Assembly (NCBI GenBank): GCA_030688615.1
Contig: JAUYIZ010000310.1
Coordinates: 1 to 33,655 of the forward strand
Source of the DNA: Desulfobacterales bacterium
Lineage (GTDB): Bacteria; Desulfobacterota; Desulfobacteria; Desulfobacterales; JAUYIZ01
Reading direction: 5' to 3'
Length of the DNA stretch: 33,655 bases
Below, in pieces: positions 3,348 to 29,853 of this stretch (its first letter is position 1; every line of letters begins with the position of its first letter). Under the pieces are notes generated by a model. It saw only the letters and a list, made by a program, of their open reading frames with translations. It was not told the DNA's origin and searched no databases. The position numbers were made by a program, and so were the translations under genes.

Positions 3348-5261
3348 ATGAAAGACAACGAGAGTAACAAAAACGACAACCTGGCATACCGAGTTGGTGA
3401 TCGCATTGGCGGTGATTACCTTATAAAGGACATCTTCGGAGGATTCCAAAAGTCGGGAATGGGTGTCGTCTACCTTGTTGAAAACAGGCGATGGGACTGC
3501 CCATTTGTTTTAAAAACCTACCAAGACGCTAGAGCCAACACGAATTTTGAGCAAAAGTTTCGCAAGGAAGCTGAGGCTTGGGTCGCGGTTGGGGTGCACC
3601 CAAACATTGTTAAGGCCCATTGGGTGGACTCCATTGATTTTCGTTTGTTTGTGGCCGCCGAATACATAGCCAAAGACTCGGAGGGACGCAATAATCTTCA
3701 TGACTATATTTCCGCTGGGCCATTAAATCCTTTCTGGATATTGAACTGGGCGGCGCAGTTTTGTTACGGGATGAAGTACGCCCTCAGAAATGGAATGCGT
3801 TCTCATCGTGACATTAAGCCTGAGAACATCATGGTGGATAGCGATTGGGTCCTTAAGGTGACCGACTTCGGCCTTGCCAAACTTTCCAGTGCAAATCTTG
3901 TGACTTCTGGTGGGACTCTCCCGTACATGTCTCCAGAACAGATAATTACGCCGCTAAAGGTCGATCACAGGGCCGACATCTACGCGTTTGGAATTATTAT
4001 GTACGGAATGTTTACTGGGGGACGGTACCCATATGCTATGCCGACGGATTCAAAGGACCCACAAGCCGAGTTTATAAAAGCTCACTTGCACGGTAGTCCA
4101 CAAAAAATCGATACCCCTCTTTACCAGATGATTGAGCGATGTCTTCGTAAAGATCCACAGGCTCGGTATGCTGGGTATGATGAATTACTCGGCGAAATAC
4201 AAAAAGTTGCAGCTGATATGGGTTTCAAGCTACTCCCTGAGAAAGGACCTTCCGAAGACGATTTAGCGGTTGAGTTATATGCCCGCGCTCAGTCTCTAAA
4301 TAGCCTTGGCCGACACGACGAAGCCCTTAAGCTGATCGAGGAGTATACGGATAAGTACCCCGAAGCGTCTTGTGGATGGACGGAGAAAGGGAGAATTCTT
4401 TTGGAACTAAACCGATCCGAGGACGCAGAACAAGCGCTTTTGAAATCGGTCGAATTGTTTCCATGTGGGTCCCCGGTCTGGAACAATCTTGGAATTCTTT
4501 ATGACCGATTGAAGCGTTATGAAGAAGCTTTTGTGGCTTATGCCCGCGCATTGGAGTTTGACGTAGGGAACACCGGTGCTTATATGAATCTGGCCCTCGC
4601 TTATTTTAATGCAGGCCAGTACTCCAAAAGTGCCGACTTGTATGTGCGGACTATCGTGAAGTTCCCACAAAAAGAGACACTTGTTTTTAATGCTGGTAAT
4701 AGTGCAGTCCTAATGATGAAAGAGGGGGCGGTAAATGATGCGATTTCAATCTTGAAGGTTTTAACGGAGAGGCGGCCCAAAGTCGTAAACCATTGGCACA
4801 ACCTGGCTCTTTGTTACTGGCAACTGAAACAGAGAGAGGATGCGGCCGACTGTTTCAATAAAGTTGTTGAGCTCAATCCCTCGGATGACTTTGCATGGAT
4901 CTCTCTCGTGAAGCTCAGCACCAACGTTGGCAATAGTATTGCGGCCTTGCGTTATTGCGATCGCCTTATGGAGTTAGAAAAAGGCCTGTCAAAAGGCGCC
5001 ACGATGAAGGCGCAATTACTCGCCAATGAAGGGAAGTATTCTGACGCTACGGCCTGTTTGAAAAGGGCACTCGAGAAATTCCCAGAAGATGACAGCGTGT
5101 ATTTTATCTGGGCCACAATAGCACAACAGACTGGGAAGACTAGCGAAGCGATGGAGGCGGCGAGGAATTGTAAGAAAATCCTGGTTTCCCAATCCCCGGT
5201 TAATACGGAAAATTTAGAAATGATTGAGGCGTTTATTCGTAGGGTGGAAAAGCGAAACTGA
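3348..5261 (+). CDS. Ser/Thr protein kinase with C-terminal TPR repeats
   Basis: Hanks motifs: 'FVLKTY' (VIK Lys), 'HRDIKPENIM', 'VTDFGLAKL', 'GGTLPYMSPEQI', 'DIYAFGIIMYGMFTGG'; multiple TPR-like repeats ('SPVWNNLGILYDRLKRYEEAFVAYARALEFD'). Confidence 0.95.
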   Translation: MKDNESNKNDNLAYRVGDRIGGDYLIKDIFGGFQKSGMGVVYLVENRRWDCPFVLKTYQDARANTNFEQKFRKEAEAWVAVGVHPNIVKAHWVDSIDFRLFVAAEYIAKDSEGRNNLHDYISAGPLNPFWILNWAAQFCYGMKYALRNGMRSHRDIKPENIMVDSDWVLKVTDFGLAKLSSANLVTSGGTLPYMSPEQIITPLKVDHRADIYAFGIIMYGMFTGGRYPYAMPTDSKDPQAEFIKAHLHGSPQKIDTPLYQMIERCLRKDPQARYAGYDELLGEIQKVAADMGFKLLPEKGPSEDDLAVELYARAQSLNSLGRHDEALKLIEEYTDKYPEASCGWTEKGRILLELNRSEDAEQALLKSVELFPCGSPVWNNLGILYDRLKRYEEAFVAYARALEFDVGNTGAYMNLALAYFNAGQYSKSADLYVRTIVKFPQKETLVFNAGNSAVLMMKEGAVNDAISILKVLTERRPKVVNHWHNLALCYWQLKQREDAADCFNKVVELNPSDDFAWISLVKLSTNVGNSIAALRYCDRLMELEKGLSKGATMKAQLLANEGKYSDATACLKRALEKFPEDDSVYFIWATIAQQTGKTSEAMEAARNCKKILVSQSPVNTENLEMIEAFIRRVEKRN

Positions 5262-7972: not shown

Positions 7973-8095
7973 AGGTGTGTTTCTGAAGGCTATGATACCC
8001 TCAGGATAGGAGTAGAAGGGGGATGTGCGGCAGCTTTTGTCGTGAAGGCAGAGAAGGAAGCATCGTCCCAACATCGCCAAAAAAAAGAAAAGTAA

Positions 8096-8317: not shown

Positions 8318-8548
8318 TTATTGAACTTCTTTTTTTTCGAGACTGCCAAAGATCTGACTTAGTTGCATCTCAAGGCCAGAGGCCAAGGATTCAAGCTTTG
8401 CTATCGTGATCGCAACTTCACCGCGTTCGATTTGGCCGTAGTAGCTACGGTCAATGTTGACATGATGGGCAAACTGCTCCTGGGTGAACCCCTTTTCCTC
8501 CCTCAAACGTCTTAGAATTCTTCCAAATCTTTTTTCAATATTTTCCAT
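8318..8548 (-). CDS. XRE-family HTH regulator
   Basis: 'LRRLREEKGFTQEQFAHHVNIDRSYYGQIERGEVAITIAKLESLASGL'. Confidence 0.9.
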   Translation of the reverse strand: MENIEKRFGRILRRLREEKGFTQEQFAHHVNIDRSYYGQIERGEVAITIAKLESLASGLEMQLSQIFGSLEKKEVQ

Positions 8549-9190: not shown

Positions 9191-9595
9191 TTGGAGAAGG
9201 TTGCCCAATCATCCAGCAAGGGCGAAGGCCATCGCGGAGATCCACCCTTCGGCCCTGTGAGATGTCCGACAGAAGGATGCCGGGAAGTATTCTTTGAGAT
9301 CCAGCAAGAATTCTGGCTGAGTGTCCTGGAACGCTTCCACTGCGACCAATGCGGAAAGCGTACCTTTCCGACATTTTCTTCACTCGTCGAAGGCAGGCCG
9401 GATATTCTGCACGTTCAGTTCTGGTGTAACGATTGTAAGAAGAATTTTACGCAGCCGATTGCCGGAATCCGGAAATACTGCCGGGGCTGCAAGGCCTATC
9501 ATCATATTTTTCTCCATTGTCTTCTCGTCATGCCGGTTGCCCAGCCTGTACACCAAGAAAATTTATTGCCTGTAACCTCGAATCTCAAGAACTAA
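9191..9595 (+). CDS. small multi-zinc-ribbon protein
   Basis: TTG start preceded by SD 'gggaggtga'; Cys pairs CPTEGC, CDQCG, CNDC, CRGC. Confidence 0.6.
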   Translation: MEKVAQSSSKGEGHRGDPPFGPVRCPTEGCREVFFEIQQEFWLSVLERFHCDQCGKRTFPTFSSLVEGRPDILHVQFWCNDCKKNFTQPIAGIRKYCRGCKAYHHIFLHCLLVMPVAQPVHQENLLPVTSNLKN

Positions 9596-9625
9596 TCCCG
9601 CTGATCGATTCTAAAGCCCTCCCGT

Positions 9626-9743
9626 TGCTGTGCTTCGCTCGCCGCTGTACACCTTTTTGGGCTGTACAGCCGCCTCGACCACGGTCCCTCTTCTTTGGGT
9701 TGAAGGTACCGTGGTCGAGGCGTACGGCTCACGAAGCACAGCA
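9626..9743. repeat. three-way-junction inverted-repeat element
   Basis: Outer stem 9626-9637/9732-9743 (tgctgtgcttcg/cgaagcacagca, 12 bp), arm 1 9644-9651/9663-9670 (gctgtaca/tgtacagc), arm 2 9671-9685/9708-9722 (cgcctcgaccacggt/accgtggtcgaggcg, 15 bp), all perfect. Confidence 0.9.
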
Positions 9744-9775
9744 TGCCCATAAATCTTTCTGATTTTCTCTCTCAG

Positions 9776-9824
9776 ATGAAACGAAGTCGTTAATTAAGGG
9801 GTGTTTTTGCCCAATACTATGAAG
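9776..9824 (+). promoter_or_regulatory. duplicated conjugation-operon leader motif, copy 1
   Basis: ATGAAACGAAGTCGTTAATTAAGGGGTGTTTTTGCCCAATACTATGAAG; about 42/49 identical to copy 2 at 29805. Confidence 0.75.
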
Positions 9825-9897
9825 AGAAAAACTCAAAATCCAAAACCCAATCTTAAAACTTGGGGTGATAAATGGTCTTAAAGCCAGGAGATGAAAG

Positions 9898-10308
9898 ATG
9901 AAAACAATCGACGTCAGTCAAAGCCGGAACATGATCCAAGCTATTAGATTTAATTTGGCTGGGATGATTGCAGGACTTGGTATTTCGATCCAAAGAGGAA
10001 TAAGTCTTGGATTTGTGCTCTTTTTGGCACTGTCCACTCTTTCTCTCTTGAATTTAGGTGCCGACAAGCTGGAAGCATCTTTTAAAGATGTGTTTGTGGT
10101 GACGAAAAACGAAGCACGTAATCCGGTGGTCGCAGCGAGTTCAGTGAATGTGCGGCCGGCGGTTATTTATCAGAAGCCGCAAGTGAAGATGATTGCGACT
10201 GAAAATCGAGTGCCGCCCAGAGATGTGAGCAGAACGATCCGGGAATCCGGTTATTTCCTGAACGCGATCGAGTCGTTTACCCGGTCGCTTGGTCGATTTG
10301 CCCAATGA
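9898..10308 (+). CDS. hypothetical membrane-anchored protein at head of conjugation block 1
   Basis: 136 aa; hydrophobic segment 'GISLGFVLFLALSTLSLLNLG'; SD 'ggagatgaaag'. Confidence 0.65.
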   Translation: MKTIDVSQSRNMIQAIRFNLAGMIAGLGISIQRGISLGFVLFLALSTLSLLNLGADKLEASFKDVFVVTKNEARNPVVAASSVNVRPAVIYQKPQVKMIATENRVPPRDVSRTIRESGYFLNAIESFTRSLGRFAQ

Positions 10309-10383: not shown

Positions 10384-11112
10384 ATGGATGAAAGCAAAGG
10401 GACGGAAGTAGAACAGCCGGTCGTTCTCAACGAGCGGGATATTGAAATCTTCAGACTGATTCATGAGCACCGGTACGCGGCGCACAGCCATCTCAAGATG
10501 GCGTTTTGGACGGATAATTCGGAAGAAGCCAACGCTTGTTACCGGCGGATTGAAAAGCTCACGAGGGCGGAATATTTGCGGAAAGGTTATTCGAGAAAGA
10601 AGAACCTGAACCTTTATCTGCTTACGGAAAAGGGCCTTGATGAGCTTCGCCGGCGGAATCTCGATGCAGGGATGCGCCTCTATGCGGAAGGGCCGTATTT
10701 CGACCGGTACATCGATCACGACCTGAAAGTCATGACGGTACGGCTTATTTTCGGACTCATGGGGCTCAAGGAATGGACAGGCGAGCGGTCGCTGAAAGAG
10801 CGCGGCGGGCTCAACCGCGTTCCAGATGGCATCCTGTCCATTCATGGTCGAAAAATCGCCATCGAGTTCGAAAACTACATTACCAAGGGACGGAAACGCT
10901 ATACGGACCTCTTCGACTTTTACAAGAGCAGCCCGGAATATGACCTGGTATTCATGATTCTCGATGGCGACACCAAGGACTGGCTTGTGGGGCTCGAATA
11001 TGATGCCCAGCAGCTGTGGTTCATCACGTATGAAGATTTTATTCAGAAGAGGGAAGAGGCCCTGCTCGAAAATAAAAGAGCGAGCTTCGTTCTGAACAGG
11101 ATCCTTCCATGA
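10384..11112 (+). CDS. replication-relaxation-like protein (wHTH plus nuclease-like C-terminus)
   Basis: 'LNERDIEIFRLIHEHRYAAHSHLKMAFW...RRIEKLTRAEYLRKGY...YLLTEKGLDELRRR' and 'VPDGILSIHGRKIAIEFENY', the Replic_Relax (PF13814)-like pattern. Confidence 0.7.
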   Translation: MDESKGTEVEQPVVLNERDIEIFRLIHEHRYAAHSHLKMAFWTDNSEEANACYRRIEKLTRAEYLRKGYSRKKNLNLYLLTEKGLDELRRRNLDAGMRLYAEGPYFDRYIDHDLKVMTVRLIFGLMGLKEWTGERSLKERGGLNRVPDGILSIHGRKIAIEFENYITKGRKRYTDLFDFYKSSPEYDLVFMILDGDTKDWLVGLEYDAQQLWFITYEDFIQKREEALLENKRASFVLNRILP

Positions 11113-11115
11113 GCC

Positions 11116-12972
11116 ATGACGAAGACAGCGGACCGACAGGAATCGCTTCTGGTCAAGGTCCTGGGATGGATTTTTGCGGCAATTCCCTTAGCGTTAGCTA
11201 ATGGACTGATCGAATTTCTTGCCAAAAGATCAGGGGCCCGGGCCAAGTGCTGGGCATTGGCCGGCCTTTGCGCCGCATCTCTCGGCTTAATCGGTATTAC
11301 CCGGTGGCTGAGTCATTATCTATCGGCCTTTGACTCAAACGCAGGCTATCCTGCAGAGCTTCTTGGCTTCAAGGTACTTCTTTTCTATCTCGCCTATGTG
11401 GTTATCCTCATGCCCGTTTTTATCCTGATCGCTTATTTCATACGCCAGGGCCGGGAGGGGATGTTCAAGCGGGCTGACATGAGGAAGACACCCAATCCTC
11501 TGAGAATGCGGAGAAACCGCCTCATCGCGGGTCGAAAACGGGCCTACCTGGGCGAGAGTTTTCACACCGGCCGCCCGCTTTATCTGACCAACGATCAACG
11601 GCTGATGCATGCAGAAGTTGTCGGCTCCACGGGAACAGGGAAAACAGAATCAGTTCTCTTGCCGCTGCTTGCCCAGGACCTGGCCCAGCGGAAGGGTGCC
11701 ATCATTATCGATGGAAAGGGGGATTTGGAGCTCCTGGACAGGATCCAATATATCGTCCTCGAGAAGAAACGAGAAAAGGACTTCTATTTCTTCTCCTTGG
11801 CGCATCCTGAGAAATCGCATAGTTACAATCCGCTTCTCCGGGGCAATGCCACCGAGCTCAAAGACAAGATCATCGGGAGCATGCCATGGAGTGAAGAGTT
11901 TTACCGGCGTATGGCCGAGCAGGCCTGTTTAACGCTCCTGAACGTGCTTGTGGCACAGGGTGAGAAGGTCAAGTTCAAGGATCTCCATGAATACCTGACG
12001 AATCTGGACGCACTATCGAAGCTGGTAAAGCGGACGCAGGACGAGGGCTACAAGTCGGATTTGGGCAAGATGGTGAACCAATTCAAGAACAACCCTAAAT
12101 TCCTCTCCGGTCTGATGGCGGATCTCTTTCTCACCGCTCGCAGCGAGTTCTCAAAGCTTGTGGACGTGGATGATCCGGAAATCGATCTCCTTGATGTTTA
12201 TCAGAACAACCGCATCGTTTACTTCCAGCTGAACCTGCAGGGGTATGGGGATACTGCCAAAAGGATGGGACGGATGATCCTGCAGGACATCCGCACGGTA
12301 TCGAGTTATATCCAGTCCCATCTCCGGGAATACAAACGCCACTTCTTTCCAGTATTCGTGGACGATGCATCCAGTTTCCTGGACCTGAATTTCATTGATT
12401 TCCTGAATAAGGCAAGGGCAAGCGGTTTTGCCATTACGCTTCTGCATCAATCCCTTGGTGATCTCGTGATCCGACGCGATTTTGCCTTCCAGCAGCAAGT
12501 GATCGAAAACACCAATATCAAAATCATCCTGAGACAGGATGATCCCGAGTCCATCGAAAAATTCACTCGTATCGGCGGGACGCGGAAGACCATGATCTCG
12601 ACATACCAGACAGAAGACAGGTTTCTTGGAAAGGGATTTACCGGCGTGGGTTCGATCCGGGAGGGCCAGACCTTCCGGGTGGATCCCGATCTCATACGCA
12701 GTTTGAAACGGGGTGAGGCCGTCGTCATATGGAAAAGCCCGTCATTTCGGACGGATTATGTGAAGCTGGATTTCTTCGGCCATCCGGTTTTCAGGGGCGA
12801 GTACGAACCTATTCACAAGATAAAGCAAGTGGATCCGCCGGTTGAAAAAGTTGAAGCCGAGGATCAGCCGAAAACCGAGACGGTCAAAACAGATGATTTG
12901 CCGCCGGACATCGATGCGCCATTAGCGATTGTTCAAGATATCGAAAGGAAAGCCCGTGAGCTAAAGAAATAG
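11116..12972 (+). CDS. type IV secretion/conjugation coupling ATPase, VirD4/TraG/TraD-like
   Basis: N-terminal TM segments; Walker A 'GSTGTGKTESVLLPLLAQDLAQRKGAIIIDGKGD'; Walker B-like 'FFPVFVDDASSFL'; 'SGFAITLLHQSLGDL'. Confidence 0.9.
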   Translation: MTKTADRQESLLVKVLGWIFAAIPLALANGLIEFLAKRSGARAKCWALAGLCAASLGLIGITRWLSHYLSAFDSNAGYPAELLGFKVLLFYLAYVVILMPVFILIAYFIRQGREGMFKRADMRKTPNPLRMRRNRLIAGRKRAYLGESFHTGRPLYLTNDQRLMHAEVVGSTGTGKTESVLLPLLAQDLAQRKGAIIIDGKGDLELLDRIQYIVLEKKREKDFYFFSLAHPEKSHSYNPLLRGNATELKDKIIGSMPWSEEFYRRMAEQACLTLLNVLVAQGEKVKFKDLHEYLTNLDALSKLVKRTQDEGYKSDLGKMVNQFKNNPKFLSGLMADLFLTARSEFSKLVDVDDPEIDLLDVYQNNRIVYFQLNLQGYGDTAKRMGRMILQDIRTVSSYIQSHLREYKRHFFPVFVDDASSFLDLNFIDFLNKARASGFAITLLHQSLGDLVIRRDFAFQQQVIENTNIKIILRQDDPESIEKFTRIGGTRKTMISTYQTEDRFLGKGFTGVGSIREGQTFRVDPDLIRSLKRGEAVVIWKSPSFRTDYVKLDFFGHPVFRGEYEPIHKIKQVDPPVEKVEAEDQPKTETVKTDDLPPDIDAPLAIVQDIERKARELKK

Positions 12973-13000: not shown

Positions 13001-13042
13001 AAAAAGGGGAAGGTCCCAAGCGATTAGGGCCTTCCCCTTTTT
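13001..13042 (+). terminator. rho-independent terminator
   Basis: aaaaaggggaaggtccc ... gggccttcccctttt, followed by T run; just downstream of the VirD4-like stop. Confidence 0.85.
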
Positions 13043-13137
13043 GCTTTTTAAACAGGAAAGGAGGTGGGTGCCGGCAAAAAAAGAGAAGGAAAGCGATTCA
13101 TTCTAAAACCACCAAATAAAACTCAAGGAGGAATGTC

Positions 13138-13377
13138 ATGGAAAATCAAGTGGTTCACAACTTCAAGAAAAGTGAAACCGAAGAAGTGCGCGTGTCGCTG
13201 CGGGAATACAAGGAGAAGACCTATGTGGATATCCGGCTCTTCTTCTTTTCCGAGCGGGACCAGGAATTCAGGCCCACGAGAAAAGGTCTGACCTTCGGAG
13301 CCGAGTTCTTGGGAGAACTGAAACGGGGACTCGAGAGGGTGGAATATGGAATAAGCGAGGCCGCACTTCAGCAATAA
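13138..13377 (+). CDS. transcriptional coactivator p15/PC4-like ssDNA-binding protein
   Basis: 'EEVRVSLREYKEKTYVDIRLFFFSERDQEFRPTRKGLTFGAEFLGELKRGLERV' matches bacterial PC4-like proteins. Confidence 0.8.
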   Translation: MENQVVHNFKKSETEEVRVSLREYKEKTYVDIRLFFFSERDQEFRPTRKGLTFGAEFLGELKRGLERVEYGISEAALQQ

Positions 13378-13414
13378 GAACAGCGCAGCCAAAGCTTTTC
13401 CTGATTCCAAAACC

Positions 13415-13449
13415 AAGGGCGGGAGGGACCATGTGTCTCTCCCGCCCTT
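13415..13449 (+). terminator. intercistronic hairpin/terminator
   Basis: aagggcgggag / ctcccgccctt, 11-bp perfect stem. Confidence 0.7.
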
Positions 13450-13472
13450 CTCATTTAAGGGAGAAAACAGCC

Positions 13473-13913
13473 ATGAATCAGAAATACCTGAAACGCATTA
13501 TCGCGCAGTATGTGCGGGAGAAAGATGTGACCTACTTCCCGTCGATGCAGTCCCCGGAGGAAGTTGCGAAGCATTTCTCCTATCTGGCCACCAGAGACCG
13601 GGAGGAATTCGTTTGTCTGCACCTTGATAAAGGCAACCATCCTCTCTGTTGGGACCGGGTCTCGGTAGGCACCCTGTCTGAAGCGCTTATCCATCCCCGC
13701 GAGGTCTTCAAGACAGCCCTGCTCTCGAACGCCTCGGCGGTGTTATTTCTGCACAACCACCCGTCTGGCCGCGGGGAGCCTTCTGCGGAAGACCGCAAGA
13801 TCACAAAGAAGCTCCAGGATGCTGGAAAGCTTCTCGAAATCAACGTCCTCGACCACCTGATCATCCACGGTGAGTCGGATTACTTCTCCTTCCGCGAACA
13901 CGGTCTTCTGTGA
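13473..13913 (+). CDS. RadC/JAB-domain protein
   Basis: 'SNASAVLFLHNHPSGRGEPSAEDRKITKKLQDAGKLLEINVLDHLIIHG' contains the JAB HxHPSGxxxPSxxD motif. Confidence 0.92.
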   Translation: MNQKYLKRIIAQYVREKDVTYFPSMQSPEEVAKHFSYLATRDREEFVCLHLDKGNHPLCWDRVSVGTLSEALIHPREVFKTALLSNASAVLFLHNHPSGRGEPSAEDRKITKKLQDAGKLLEINVLDHLIIHGESDYFSFREHGLL

Positions 13914-14295: not shown

Positions 14296-14496
14296 ATGAG
14301 CGCACTTACGATCAATAGTTGGATCGAACAGTTCAAGGCCCGGTTTGACCAACGGGAACTAAGTTACATGACCGTCCATCGGGCAAAAATCGTGCTTCAA
14401 GTCAAAGACATGGAAACCGGAGAAATCCATTTGCATGAGCTGGAATATCAAAGTAAGGATGCGGTGCAGCTGATCCTGAGTAAGACATGTAAATGA
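14296..14496 (+). CDS. small hypothetical protein
   Basis: 66 aa; SD 'aaaggagg' about 8 nt upstream. Confidence 0.6.
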   Translation: MSALTINSWIEQFKARFDQRELSYMTVHRAKIVLQVKDMETGEIHLHELEYQSKDAVQLILSKTCK

Positions 14497-14536
14497 CCAT
14501 CAAAATCAGAACACATTCCAATGGGAGGATAAAATC

Positions 14537-22343: not shown

Positions 22344-22943
22344 ATGCCTGAGAGAGCCTTTTTTGTCTACAAGATGACAACGGACAATGGTGGTGCGCCA
22401 TGCGTCCAGGATAATCTTTTAACATTAGCGATCTGTAAACCTGTCATTCGCCGTGTCGCTAAGGTGGGTGATTGGATTTTTGGATTCGGAGGCAATGGCG
22501 AATTACAGAACAGGTTGATTTACATAGCGGAGGTGACCGGAAAGTTGTGTGGCAGGATCTATTATAAAGACTATTCGAAAAGGCGGGATGCGATTTACAA
22601 ATGGAGCGGAGGTAGATTCACATTGAGAAGAACCGCTGTGTATCATGCAGACGGCAACAATATAAATAGCGATGTCGGGCAATATCCCGGGTATAAGAAT
22701 GCATACGTTTTACTTAGTGATGACTTCCGCTACTTTGGCAATACACAATATGAATATGATGAAAATCTGCTCAGTTATGTTAATCAAAACAGAATGCGAC
22801 CGCATCGTACTAATTTTGAAGCACCGCAAAGATCTCAACTTCGGCGCCTAAAAAAGAAAGTTTGGAGGGAGTATCAAGAAATGAAGATCGGAGACCCGAC
22901 GCACGATACCCCTGATGGCCGCAAAAGAAGTTGCAGCGGGTGA
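22344..22943 (+). CDS. Nmad2-like putative nucleotide-modification-associated protein
   Basis: 'FFVYKMTTDNGGAPCVQDNLLTLAICKPVIRRVAKVGDWIFGFGGN' is the Nmad2 signature (CKPxIRRxAxVGDWIxGxG). Confidence 0.85.
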   Translation: MPERAFFVYKMTTDNGGAPCVQDNLLTLAICKPVIRRVAKVGDWIFGFGGNGELQNRLIYIAEVTGKLCGRIYYKDYSKRRDAIYKWSGGRFTLRRTAVYHADGNNINSDVGQYPGYKNAYVLLSDDFRYFGNTQYEYDENLLSYVNQNRMRPHRTNFEAPQRSQLRRLKKKVWREYQEMKIGDPTHDTPDGRKRSCSG

Positions 22944-25511: not shown

Positions 25512-26330
25512 ATGTTGACAAAAGATTTTTTGTATGAAATTAACGGGGAAAAGAACGGAGGACTGAAATATTTTCTAGACACATTTAAGGGCGACCCTCG
25601 TATTGCCTGGTATCCTTCAGCGGGAGATGATTTTCGTGATTTGTTGTATCTGCATCCCAAATTTGCTGAAATAGCGCCAGCAACTAAACCTGATCCGCCC
25701 TTGCCGGATATTTTTCTTCATACCGACTACTACTTTCCCGGGTCAGAATCAACATTTCGCGATAATCAAATCATTCATGATGACGGTAGTACTCGAATCT
25801 CTATTGAAATTATCGAAGAATTGTCCCGATTGGATTTTCGTCTGGATTCGCAAATAGTTGATTTTCCTCAAGGAAGCTCTACAACTGGCCGTGTAATTTT
25901 CCTTCAAATTAAAGTTTGCTCAAATAGACTGGGAGAGTTTTCCCGGCCGCTTATTTATGCGTTCGTTGAAAACGAGGCTTTTTGTGCGTCAAAGGTCTTA
26001 CCAGCGCATTGCCAGTTTAGCCATGTGATCCATGTTCGTTATGGTGGCGGTCACGGCGGGGGAGGAAAGGCAAGGGGCGGGTGGTTACTGAATGTATTAG
26101 ATAGACTAGGATGTGAAGTATTCGTCACTGACGGAAGCCATGAACTTTCTCTTGGCGATAGGGATGCGCTTAGACTATATCCCATACTGGAAGGTTCGAA
26201 TACAGATCGTGAAGTTATACGGACTTTAGAAAGCGAAAAGTGGTCCGATTATGGAGACGTCACATGGAATATTCCCCGTGATAGATCAGGAAACAATATG
26301 GCGCCGGCAAGAGAAGAGGAATGGCGGTAA
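25512..26330 (+). CDS. conserved hypothetical protein
   Basis: 272 aa; SD-like 'ggtggtaag' upstream; contains 'DPRIAWYPSAGDDFRDLLYLHP'. Confidence 0.7.
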   Translation: MLTKDFLYEINGEKNGGLKYFLDTFKGDPRIAWYPSAGDDFRDLLYLHPKFAEIAPATKPDPPLPDIFLHTDYYFPGSESTFRDNQIIHDDGSTRISIEIIEELSRLDFRLDSQIVDFPQGSSTTGRVIFLQIKVCSNRLGEFSRPLIYAFVENEAFCASKVLPAHCQFSHVIHVRYGGGHGGGGKARGGWLLNVLDRLGCEVFVTDGSHELSLGDRDALRLYPILEGSNTDREVIRTLESEKWSDYGDVTWNIPRDRSGNNMAPAREEEWR

Positions 26331-26359
26331 CCGTCGTGAAAACTGAAAAGGGAGCAATT

Positions 26360-27316
26360 ATGGCTAATAAATCTTGGGGAATTAAATTGGGTTCCGGAGG
26401 AATATGTGTTCCGTTCTGTGAATCCCACTCCATCGTTGGGCTAGGATGGAAAATGGTGAATTCGAATATTATTTCAAGCAGTTCGAAAGAGGCGTTGTGG
26501 CAGCATGTCAGCAATGTCTGCAATTATTCGGACAATCGAGCCATTGGTAGCGCGACCGGAAAACTTTTCCGATTTGCCCAGGAGTGCGCCATTGGTGATT
26601 ACATTTTCTACTATGATCCCCCCAATAAACACGTTCGCATCTGTCGCGTATTGTCTGAACCCTTATACCGTAATTTTGATTTGAATACCGACATTGATGT
26701 TTGGCATTATCGCGAGGTCGAGTATCCACTCAAACCCATCTCGATCTTGGATTTTTATGGGGTATTGAAGGGGAAACTTTTGGGCCCACGCATGAGTTTC
26801 TGGACAATATTCGGCGGCACCGATTATGTCGCACAGCTCCTTTCAGGCCGAAAGCCCGGAGCTGAGCAAACCAAAGAATATCAGGATACAATGACAGTTC
26901 TAAAAAAACTCATCTTAAAACAGGTGGAAGTATTTGCTGATCAAGATTGGGAAAAAGTCGCGGCAGACTTTCTAAAATCTCAAGGAGCCCAGATTGATGG
27001 TCGCATTGGCGGTAACAGGTCCATTATCGATGTTGAAGCAAGATTTGATCATGGCATATTCGGAGAAGACATCTGGAGAATTCAGGTTAAATGCTACAAG
27101 GACCGCAAAGTCGATTGGCCTCAGATCGAAAAAGATTTTCATCACGTTGGAGATGCCAAATTTTGCTATGTAGCAGTTTTTGGTTTTACCGATGAAGCAA
27201 GACGACAAGCTGAAGCGAATGGGGTTTTGTTATTGGAGGCAGTAGACTTCGTACCGTTCTTCATGAGTGGAAAACTGAGATCCGATTTGATATACAAATT
27301 GGGACTCACAGCATGA
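26360..27316 (+). CDS. Mrr-like restriction endonuclease with N-terminal PUA/EVE-like domain
   Basis: C-terminus 'DWEKVAADFLKSQGAQIDGRIGGNRSIIDVEARFDHGIFGEDIWRIQVKCYKDRKVDWPQIEKDF...AVFGFTDEARRQAEANGVLLLEAVDFVPFF' fits Mrr_cat; N-terminus 'WGIKLGSGG...IVGLGW...AIGDYIFYYDPPNKHVRICRVLSEP' is PUA/EVE-like. Start set at internal Met. Confidence 0.8.
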   Translation: MANKSWGIKLGSGGICVPFCESHSIVGLGWKMVNSNIISSSSKEALWQHVSNVCNYSDNRAIGSATGKLFRFAQECAIGDYIFYYDPPNKHVRICRVLSEPLYRNFDLNTDIDVWHYREVEYPLKPISILDFYGVLKGKLLGPRMSFWTIFGGTDYVAQLLSGRKPGAEQTKEYQDTMTVLKKLILKQVEVFADQDWEKVAADFLKSQGAQIDGRIGGNRSIIDVEARFDHGIFGEDIWRIQVKCYKDRKVDWPQIEKDFHHVGDAKFCYVAVFGFTDEARRQAEANGVLLLEAVDFVPFFMSGKLRSDLIYKLGLTA

Positions 27317-29214: not shown

Positions 29215-29808
29215 ATGAAAACAAAAAAGAATAGAAACACATCGAATAACAAGCCAAGAACCAGAGTGCGGACCGTTGATTTTATGAGAATTGAGGGGAC
29301 GGTGAATAATCAACCATTGAGCACCTTTGAACTCGACGTCCGCGAGAAGTTAGCAGTATCAGCATCGCCGCTGAACTTTATGATCCAGCAAGAAGACGAA
29401 GCCTTGAGAGATGAGCAGCGTCATGAAGCAAAGCAAACACTCAAGGAACTTCTCAAGGCCGCGCACCTTACGCGGAAACAGTTATGGTGCTACAGACTCG
29501 TTTTCAGGGAAGGCCGAACCATCCGTGATACCGCATTGCTGATGAAGGTCTCAGATGCGCGGATTTGCACCATGGTCGAAGGGATCAAAACCACCTTGAA
29601 GAGAACGGCGGCAAAGCTGGAAAACGGTCAGATGCTCTTTGAGCGTATTTCAGAAATGCCGCTTGAGGCGTGGGAAAAGCAGCTTTGCGATCTCAGACTT
29701 CGCAAAGGATTGTCGCTGAGGCGTATCGCTGCGGTCATGGGAATCAGTTGGCCCACTGTGCACAGGCGGGTAAAAGCCATTCTCGGCAGGCTGGTGGTTG
29801 AGGAATGA
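29215..29808 (+). CDS. sigma-70 region-4-like double-HTH regulator
   Basis: 'LTRKQLWCYRLVFREGRTIRDTALLMKVSDARICTMVEGIKTTLKR' and 'LRKGLSLRRIAAVMGISWPTVHRRVKAIL'. Confidence 0.75.
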   Translation: MKTKKNRNTSNNKPRTRVRTVDFMRIEGTVNNQPLSTFELDVREKLAVSASPLNFMIQQEDEALRDEQRHEAKQTLKELLKAAHLTRKQLWCYRLVFREGRTIRDTALLMKVSDARICTMVEGIKTTLKRTAAKLENGQMLFERISEMPLEAWEKQLCDLRLRKGLSLRRIAAVMGISWPTVHRRVKAILGRLVVEE

Positions 29809-29853
29809 AACGAACCCGTTAATTACGGGCGGTTTTTGACCAATACTATGGAG
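29805..29853 (+). promoter_or_regulatory. duplicated conjugation-operon leader motif, copy 2
   Basis: ATGAAACGAACCCGTTAATTACGGGCGGTTTTTGACCAATACTATGGAG; see copy 1 at 9776. Confidence 0.75.

Follow-up and report, generated by a model that had tools for sequence, protein, structure and literature searches.

A 118-base element at positions 9626-9743 of the window (the whole 33,655-nucleotide stretch analysed) is very probably the oriT of a MOBC conjugative element, working as DNA. We base this reading on structure, position, covariation, polarity and reference plasmids together: the element lies beside the genes for a MOBC relaxase and a coupling protein, and it forms a large inverted repeat with the predicted nic inside, as in CloDF13 and pAM373. 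Nicking, relaxase binding, mobilisation, transfer direction and rejoining are what we infer for it. The first-pass annotation of this DNA had left the choice between an oriT-like DNA site and a structured RNA; the former gains support from the linkage to MOBC and coupling-protein genes, from paired stem changes, from the architecture of CloDF13 and pAM373, and from strand polarity.

Structure and folding of the element

Inspection of the sequence (9626-9743, 118 bases) yields three perfect stems of 12, 8 and 15 bp, so the stems described in the first-pass annotation are borne out with exact coordinates. The features of the element and its surroundings are as follows.

9191-9595, plus strand: zinc-ribbon protein gene, conserved neighbour of the proposed oriT on its upstream side; its homologues occupy the equivalent position in L006, L007, L008, L010, L055 and L058
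9626-9637 (5' arm, TGCTGTGCTTCG) and 9732-9743 (3' arm, CGAAGCACAGCA): outer stem, 12 bp, perfect
9641-9643 and 9726-9728: extra 3-bp stem, GCC/GGC
9644-9670: hairpin 1, 8-bp stem with arms 9644-9651 (GCTGTACA) and 9663-9670 (TGTACAGC); small, least conserved junction arm
9671-9722: hairpin 2, 15-bp stem with arms 9671-9685 (CGCCTCGACCACGGT) and 9708-9722 (ACCGTGGTCGAGGCG); core hairpin with the conserved GACCnC/GnGGTC stem
Between 9680 and 9679, minus strand: predicted nic, CCGTG/GTCGAGG, by core alignment with CloDF13 GGGTG/GTCGGG
9776-9824, plus strand: motif in common with 29805-29853, probable relaxase-operon promoter for an element-encoded sigma factor
9898-10308, plus strand: small conserved protein gene between promoter and relaxase; homologues in L006, L055 and L056-L058
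10384-11112, plus strand: MOBC-family relaxase gene (winged helix and PD-(D/E)XK-type nuclease)
11116-12972, plus strand: TraD/TraG-type coupling protein gene (PF10412, PF02534, PF12696; TIGR03743)

Folded as RNA, the element reaches -77.8 kcal/mol on the plus strand and -85.0 kcal/mol on the minus strand, against shuffle means of -42.8 and -46.9. The corresponding z values relative to dinucleotide shuffles are -9.56 and -9.65 (about -9.6 on both strands), and none of 200 shuffles folded as well. A T tract is absent after either arm, unlike in an intrinsic terminator, and this agrees with the earlier judgement that a simple terminator was unlikely. A search of Rfam 15 returned nothing at the gathering score and, at a permissive threshold, chance miRNA matches only. 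Searching plasmids and phages by DNA similarity gave nothing useful, and a 43-bp blastn match in another genome (G016, L004) was dismissed as chance, as it falls in the start of a coding sequence.

A REP- or MITE-type palindromic repeat present by chance would also be an inverted repeat with an outer terminal stem, but the 118-base element occurs once in its own genome, and in divergent elements its counterparts are found at the corresponding site although their stems differ in sequence. These observations refute that explanation, to which we assign a negligible chance.

Gene neighbourhood and the MOBC relaxase

The element had been placed between the zinc-ribbon gene and a shared leader motif, and this agrees with the gene at 9191-9595 upstream and the motif at 9776-9824 downstream. 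The motif is indeed shared (9776-9824 = 29805-29853); it looks less like a leader than like a promoter for a sigma factor encoded on the element itself. Within it, TTTTTGCCCAATACTATG (9804-9821 and 29833-29850) is found in the window only before both transfer blocks, and also before block 1 in L092. Because TTTTTGCCCAATACTATG is confined to the starts of transfer blocks, the motif is probably the promoter of an element-encoded sigma factor; the gene at 29215-29808 matches sigma-70/FliA-type factors (TIGR02937, 1.8e-9).

The relaxase encoded at 10384-11112 matches PF13814 (Replic_Relax) at 7.8e-6 and 26.5 bits, above the cut-off of 25.3, as well as NF041423 (the NCBI MobC family of CloDF13 type) at 3.6e-10 and 39.5 bits, which does not reach the subfamily cut-off of 200. 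Its predicted structure (pLDDT 85) consists of a winged helix followed by an alpha/beta core with the PD...ExE strands. The residues P, D, E, E and K (PD...ExE...K) are invariant in all 18 aligned relaxase homologues, including MobC of a CloDF13-like plasmid, and judged from sequence this pattern is the PD-(D/E)XK nuclease signature. Foldseek searches with the model retrieved winged-helix regulators, BamHI, HincII and Hjc, none of them significant alone (best E 0.005). The published description of MOBC relaxases likens them to restriction endonucleases and places a winged helix at the N terminus (PMC12857230).

An XRE-type regulator gene (8318-8548, minus strand) lies upstream in the window, and a LacI-type regulator gene (~355 aa) directly precedes the zinc-ribbon gene in the related loci of G211, G198, G229 and G237. 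A retron or IS200-type RNA was considered and rejected, as the 20 window proteins scanned include no reverse transcriptase and no TnpA/TnpB.

Relatives in Omnitrophota retain pairing with different stems

Searching with the window coupling protein identified Omnitrophota contigs (54-61% identity), and a phylum-wide search added further loci; the viral contigs scanned with the same protein gave no match. Of 15 Omnitrophota-type loci with sufficient sequence ahead of the MOBC gene, 14 carry a nested inverted repeat there (L006, L007, L008, L010, L054-L060, L062, L074 and the window). At the Omnitrophota MOBC locus L063, no clear nested repeat was seen upstream of the relaxase gene. The outer stems of the relatives (for example CTGTGCTTCG, GTCCTTCCCG, CGGGCATGCC, CATCCTTTGC, CTTCCTCACC and TCTCAACACG, each matched by a complementary arm) are entirely different in sequence among related loci, with pairing retained. 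In the core hairpin, GACC(A/T)C and its partner are retained, and on the relaxase-sense strand a C.C or C.T mismatch frequently comes next. Over the whole set of elements, within Omnitrophota and beyond, hairpin 1 is optional, being degenerate in L059 and absent in L100.

Pairs were counted in arms set in register by hand, because MAFFT alignments of the complete elements (A1, A2) failed to match up the outer stems. Across 18 elements, standard pairs filled 410 of 432 pair cells, compared with 250 +/- 7 in shuffles, and 161 cells differed from the commonest pair on both sides, compared with 42 +/- 5; both counts are partly circular, because the arms were located as inverted repeats. The paired stem changes that the first-pass annotation had proposed to look for by covariation analysis are present. 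Independent support comes from the recurrence of the repeats at one genomic place: the nested-repeat scan gave one many-seeded match in the window, at the element, against a background of 6 chance matches in 1.71 Mb of block-shuffled DNA.

In L054 (G197:C28, 1610-2530), a second oriT-like element lies 24 bp before a different MOBC gene, with no coupling protein gene adjacent. The same genome, G197, also contains a related element with a coupling protein, and the L054 element is likely a mobilizable hitch-hiker.

Several further features were noted in these loci. In L006, three GGGTCTACA-type repeats, set apart from one another, lie together with a 14-bp hairpin (7992-8062) ~150 bp before the oriT, and hairpin 1 ends in similar GGGTCTAC words in other Omnitrophota copies; these could be relaxase or accessory binding words. 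Group II intron pieces are found inside or at the edge of transfer regions (L006 12223-12492; L052 336-407). An AT-rich, TATGAT-like minus-strand loop in some Omnitrophota copies suggested a single-strand promoter (Frpo-like), which we rejected since the motif is absent from other MOBC elements.

The architecture recurs on plasmids of other phyla

The same nested architecture was found upstream of MOBC genes on plasmids of Paenibacillus, Peribacillus, Bacillus, Alkalihalophilus and Cytobacillus, and on a CloDF13-like Enterobacter plasmid; those of Paenibacillus, Bacillus and Enterobacter are typed as MOBC. A Bdellovibrio plasmid has a single 31-bp hairpin in place of the nested repeat, and in three plasmid examples from Streptomyces, Pseudomonas and Eleftheria the nested structure could not be made out. 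The distance from element to relaxase gene ranges from ~25 bp (L054, L062) to >1 kb (some Bacillota plasmids).

Two reference plasmids were compared directly. No segment of CloDF13 (NC_002119) has a lower folding energy than the nested repeat at 9650-9783, whose hairpin contains the sole GGGTGGTCGGG of CloDF13, on the plus strand, the mob genes being on the minus strand. GGGTGGTCGGG, cut as GGGTG/GTCGGG, is reportedly the CloDF13 nic site (Nunez & de la Cruz 2001), and we favour this assignment because of the exact single match inside the predicted hairpin. By alignment of the cores, the window nic would lie on the minus strand between 9680 and 9679. In pAM373, too, the folding energy is lowest at the nested repeat (14392-14533), and the MOBC gene (13007-13792) lies downstream of it.

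A site of recombination, resolution or replication (attP-like, dimer resolution, or a rolling-circle double- or single-strand origin) could in principle take this form, as folded single-stranded DNA sites serve such roles, and a review counts TraX of pAD1, a MOBC relaxase, among the relaxases with recombinase-like properties (PMC5714925). Against this, the element is linked to MOBC genes on plasmids and other elements without need of a nearby integrase or Rep gene, and no recombinase gene recurs beside it. It is also present in CloDF13 with the reported nic, and we consider such a site highly improbable.

Strand polarity

Strand preference was judged by folding energies because single mismatches (G.T versus A.C, 3 versus 7) were too thin a basis. 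With DNA parameters, 18 of 19 elements give the more stable fold on the strand antisense to the relaxase gene, and the same preference was seen in all seven later-found elements and in both reference plasmids, giving 27 of 28 in total; with RNA parameters, it is weaker (14 of 19). A sign test on the first 26 elements gives p = 8e-7 when they are treated as independent, a value that overstates the significance because the elements are related. A contribution to the polarity comes from pyrimidine-rich unpaired bases on the relaxase-sense strand, seen in some of the Omnitrophota elements. In CloDF13, the favoured strand is the one bearing GGGTGGTCGGG. Transfer genes usually enter last in conjugation; if the favoured strand is the one transferred, transfer-gene-distal DNA would enter first and the transfer genes last, matching this order.

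The very stable RNA fold and the covarying stems would also suit a structured RNA, either a small RNA or an mRNA 3' end regulating transfer (for example antisense to the operon, or sgm-sRNA-like), and mobilisation of SGI1 requires a small RNA, sgm-sRNA, encoded next to its oriT (PMC9299015). This option of the first-pass annotation has nevertheless been weakened: the element has no Rfam match and no terminator T tract, it precedes the probable operon promoter (9804-9821), and its distance from the relaxase gene varies widely. Moreover, the strand preference is clearer with DNA than with RNA parameters, and the reported CloDF13 nic falls inside the same hairpin. We therefore regard a structured RNA as very unlikely.

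Proposed function as a MOBC oriT

On the oriT reading, the MOBC relaxase (10384-11112) would recognise the nested inverted repeat, most likely in an extruded or single-stranded state, and would nick the minus strand within the core hairpin at CCGTG/GTCGAGG. The minus strand would then leave with the zinc-ribbon side first and the transfer genes last, with the coupling protein passing it on. Inside the recipient cell, the minus strand in its folded form may signal where the transferred strand ends and is to be rejoined.

Few relaxases are as poorly understood as those of the MOBC family. They lack the HUH fold and no covalent intermediate has been detected (PMC12857230); for these reasons, how they hold and rejoin the DNA end is an open question. 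A common covarying, strand-polarised oriT from Omnitrophota to Bacillota and Enterobacteria would make folded-strand recognition, the GTG/GTC nick and end-of-transfer folding testable. We put forward tentatively, with rather more doubt than belief, that MOBC relaxases form one structure-recognising system across phyla. Its site would be a folded nested palindrome with a short GTG/GTC core, the strand being set by the built-in polarity and the shape read as by junction resolvases of the same fold, so that the oriT sequence could drift almost completely with function kept. A structure-based search may also reveal oriT sites, and hitch-hiking elements with an oriT only, where sequence searches fail.

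The MOBC oriT as such is already known; the cross-phylum, sequence-divergent and strand-polarised architecture may be undescribed. No description of it was found in the literature searched, primary oriT papers lying outside that search, and the literature searched described no earlier Omnitrophota oriT.

Host assignment and cargo

At close identity, the transfer system is absent from 194 genomes of the order of the host bin and is found in Omnitrophota; on these grounds, the contig (G000:C97) is a recent acquisition or else a binning error. A different contig from that bin (G000:C244, L111) contains additional transfer block 2 sequence, which includes one in-frame TGA. To the left of the transfer module, the gene at 3348-5261 encodes a 637-aa protein that joins a protein kinase domain to TPR repeats. 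Cargo comprises an Nmad2-domain protein (22344-22943) and a DUF7663 gene (25512-26330) overlapping an Mrr-type nuclease gene (26321-27316), which together look like defence or nucleotide modification functions.

Comparison with known systems

The Omnitrophota elements (L006, L007, L010, L055-L059) share the order of the window, with a zinc-ribbon gene, the three-way element, a small protein, the MOBC relaxase and the coupling protein, followed further on by an F-type block with TraC/VirB4. They differ in their unrelated outer stems and variable hairpin 1, and the zinc-ribbon gene is more distant in G211 and G243.

In pAD1, the TraX binding site consists of five direct repeats at 70-120 bp from nic (PMC12857230), whereas no direct repeats were found in the window at 9560-9900. 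The Carboxydocella and B. subtilis plasmids do carry direct-repeat arrays; since such arrays are present in L096 and L105 but not clearly in the CloDF13-like L097, they are not established as defining a MOBC oriT. The window relaxase would then either bind within the folded structure or have a non-repetitive binding site. The relaxase of pAM373, Orf8, is related to TraX of pAD1 (PMC7117660), and the pAM373 element resembles that of the window in having an outer stem (18 bp) and a core hairpin (24 bp) that contains CTGACC/GGTCAG.

The Carboxydocella thermautotrophica plasmid pCCELLA01 (MOBC in PLSDB) likewise has an outer stem (14 bp), a small hairpin, and MOBC and coupling protein genes downstream, and its core, GACCTCG-C-CC.../...GG-C-CGAGGTC, has a C.C mismatch as in the window element. 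It differs in tandem direct repeats downstream (3657-3771) and in a spacing of ~175 bp between element and relaxase gene. The oriT of CloDF13 (mobB/mobC) likewise combines an outer stem with a core hairpin containing TGGTC, and its GGGTGGTCGGG strand is antisense to the mob genes. Its reported nic core is GGGTG/GTCGGG, compared with CCGTG/GTCGAGG predicted for the window, and extra inner hairpins stand where the window has a single small one. CloDF13 is mobilizable only, whereas the window element is accompanied by an F-type transfer block.
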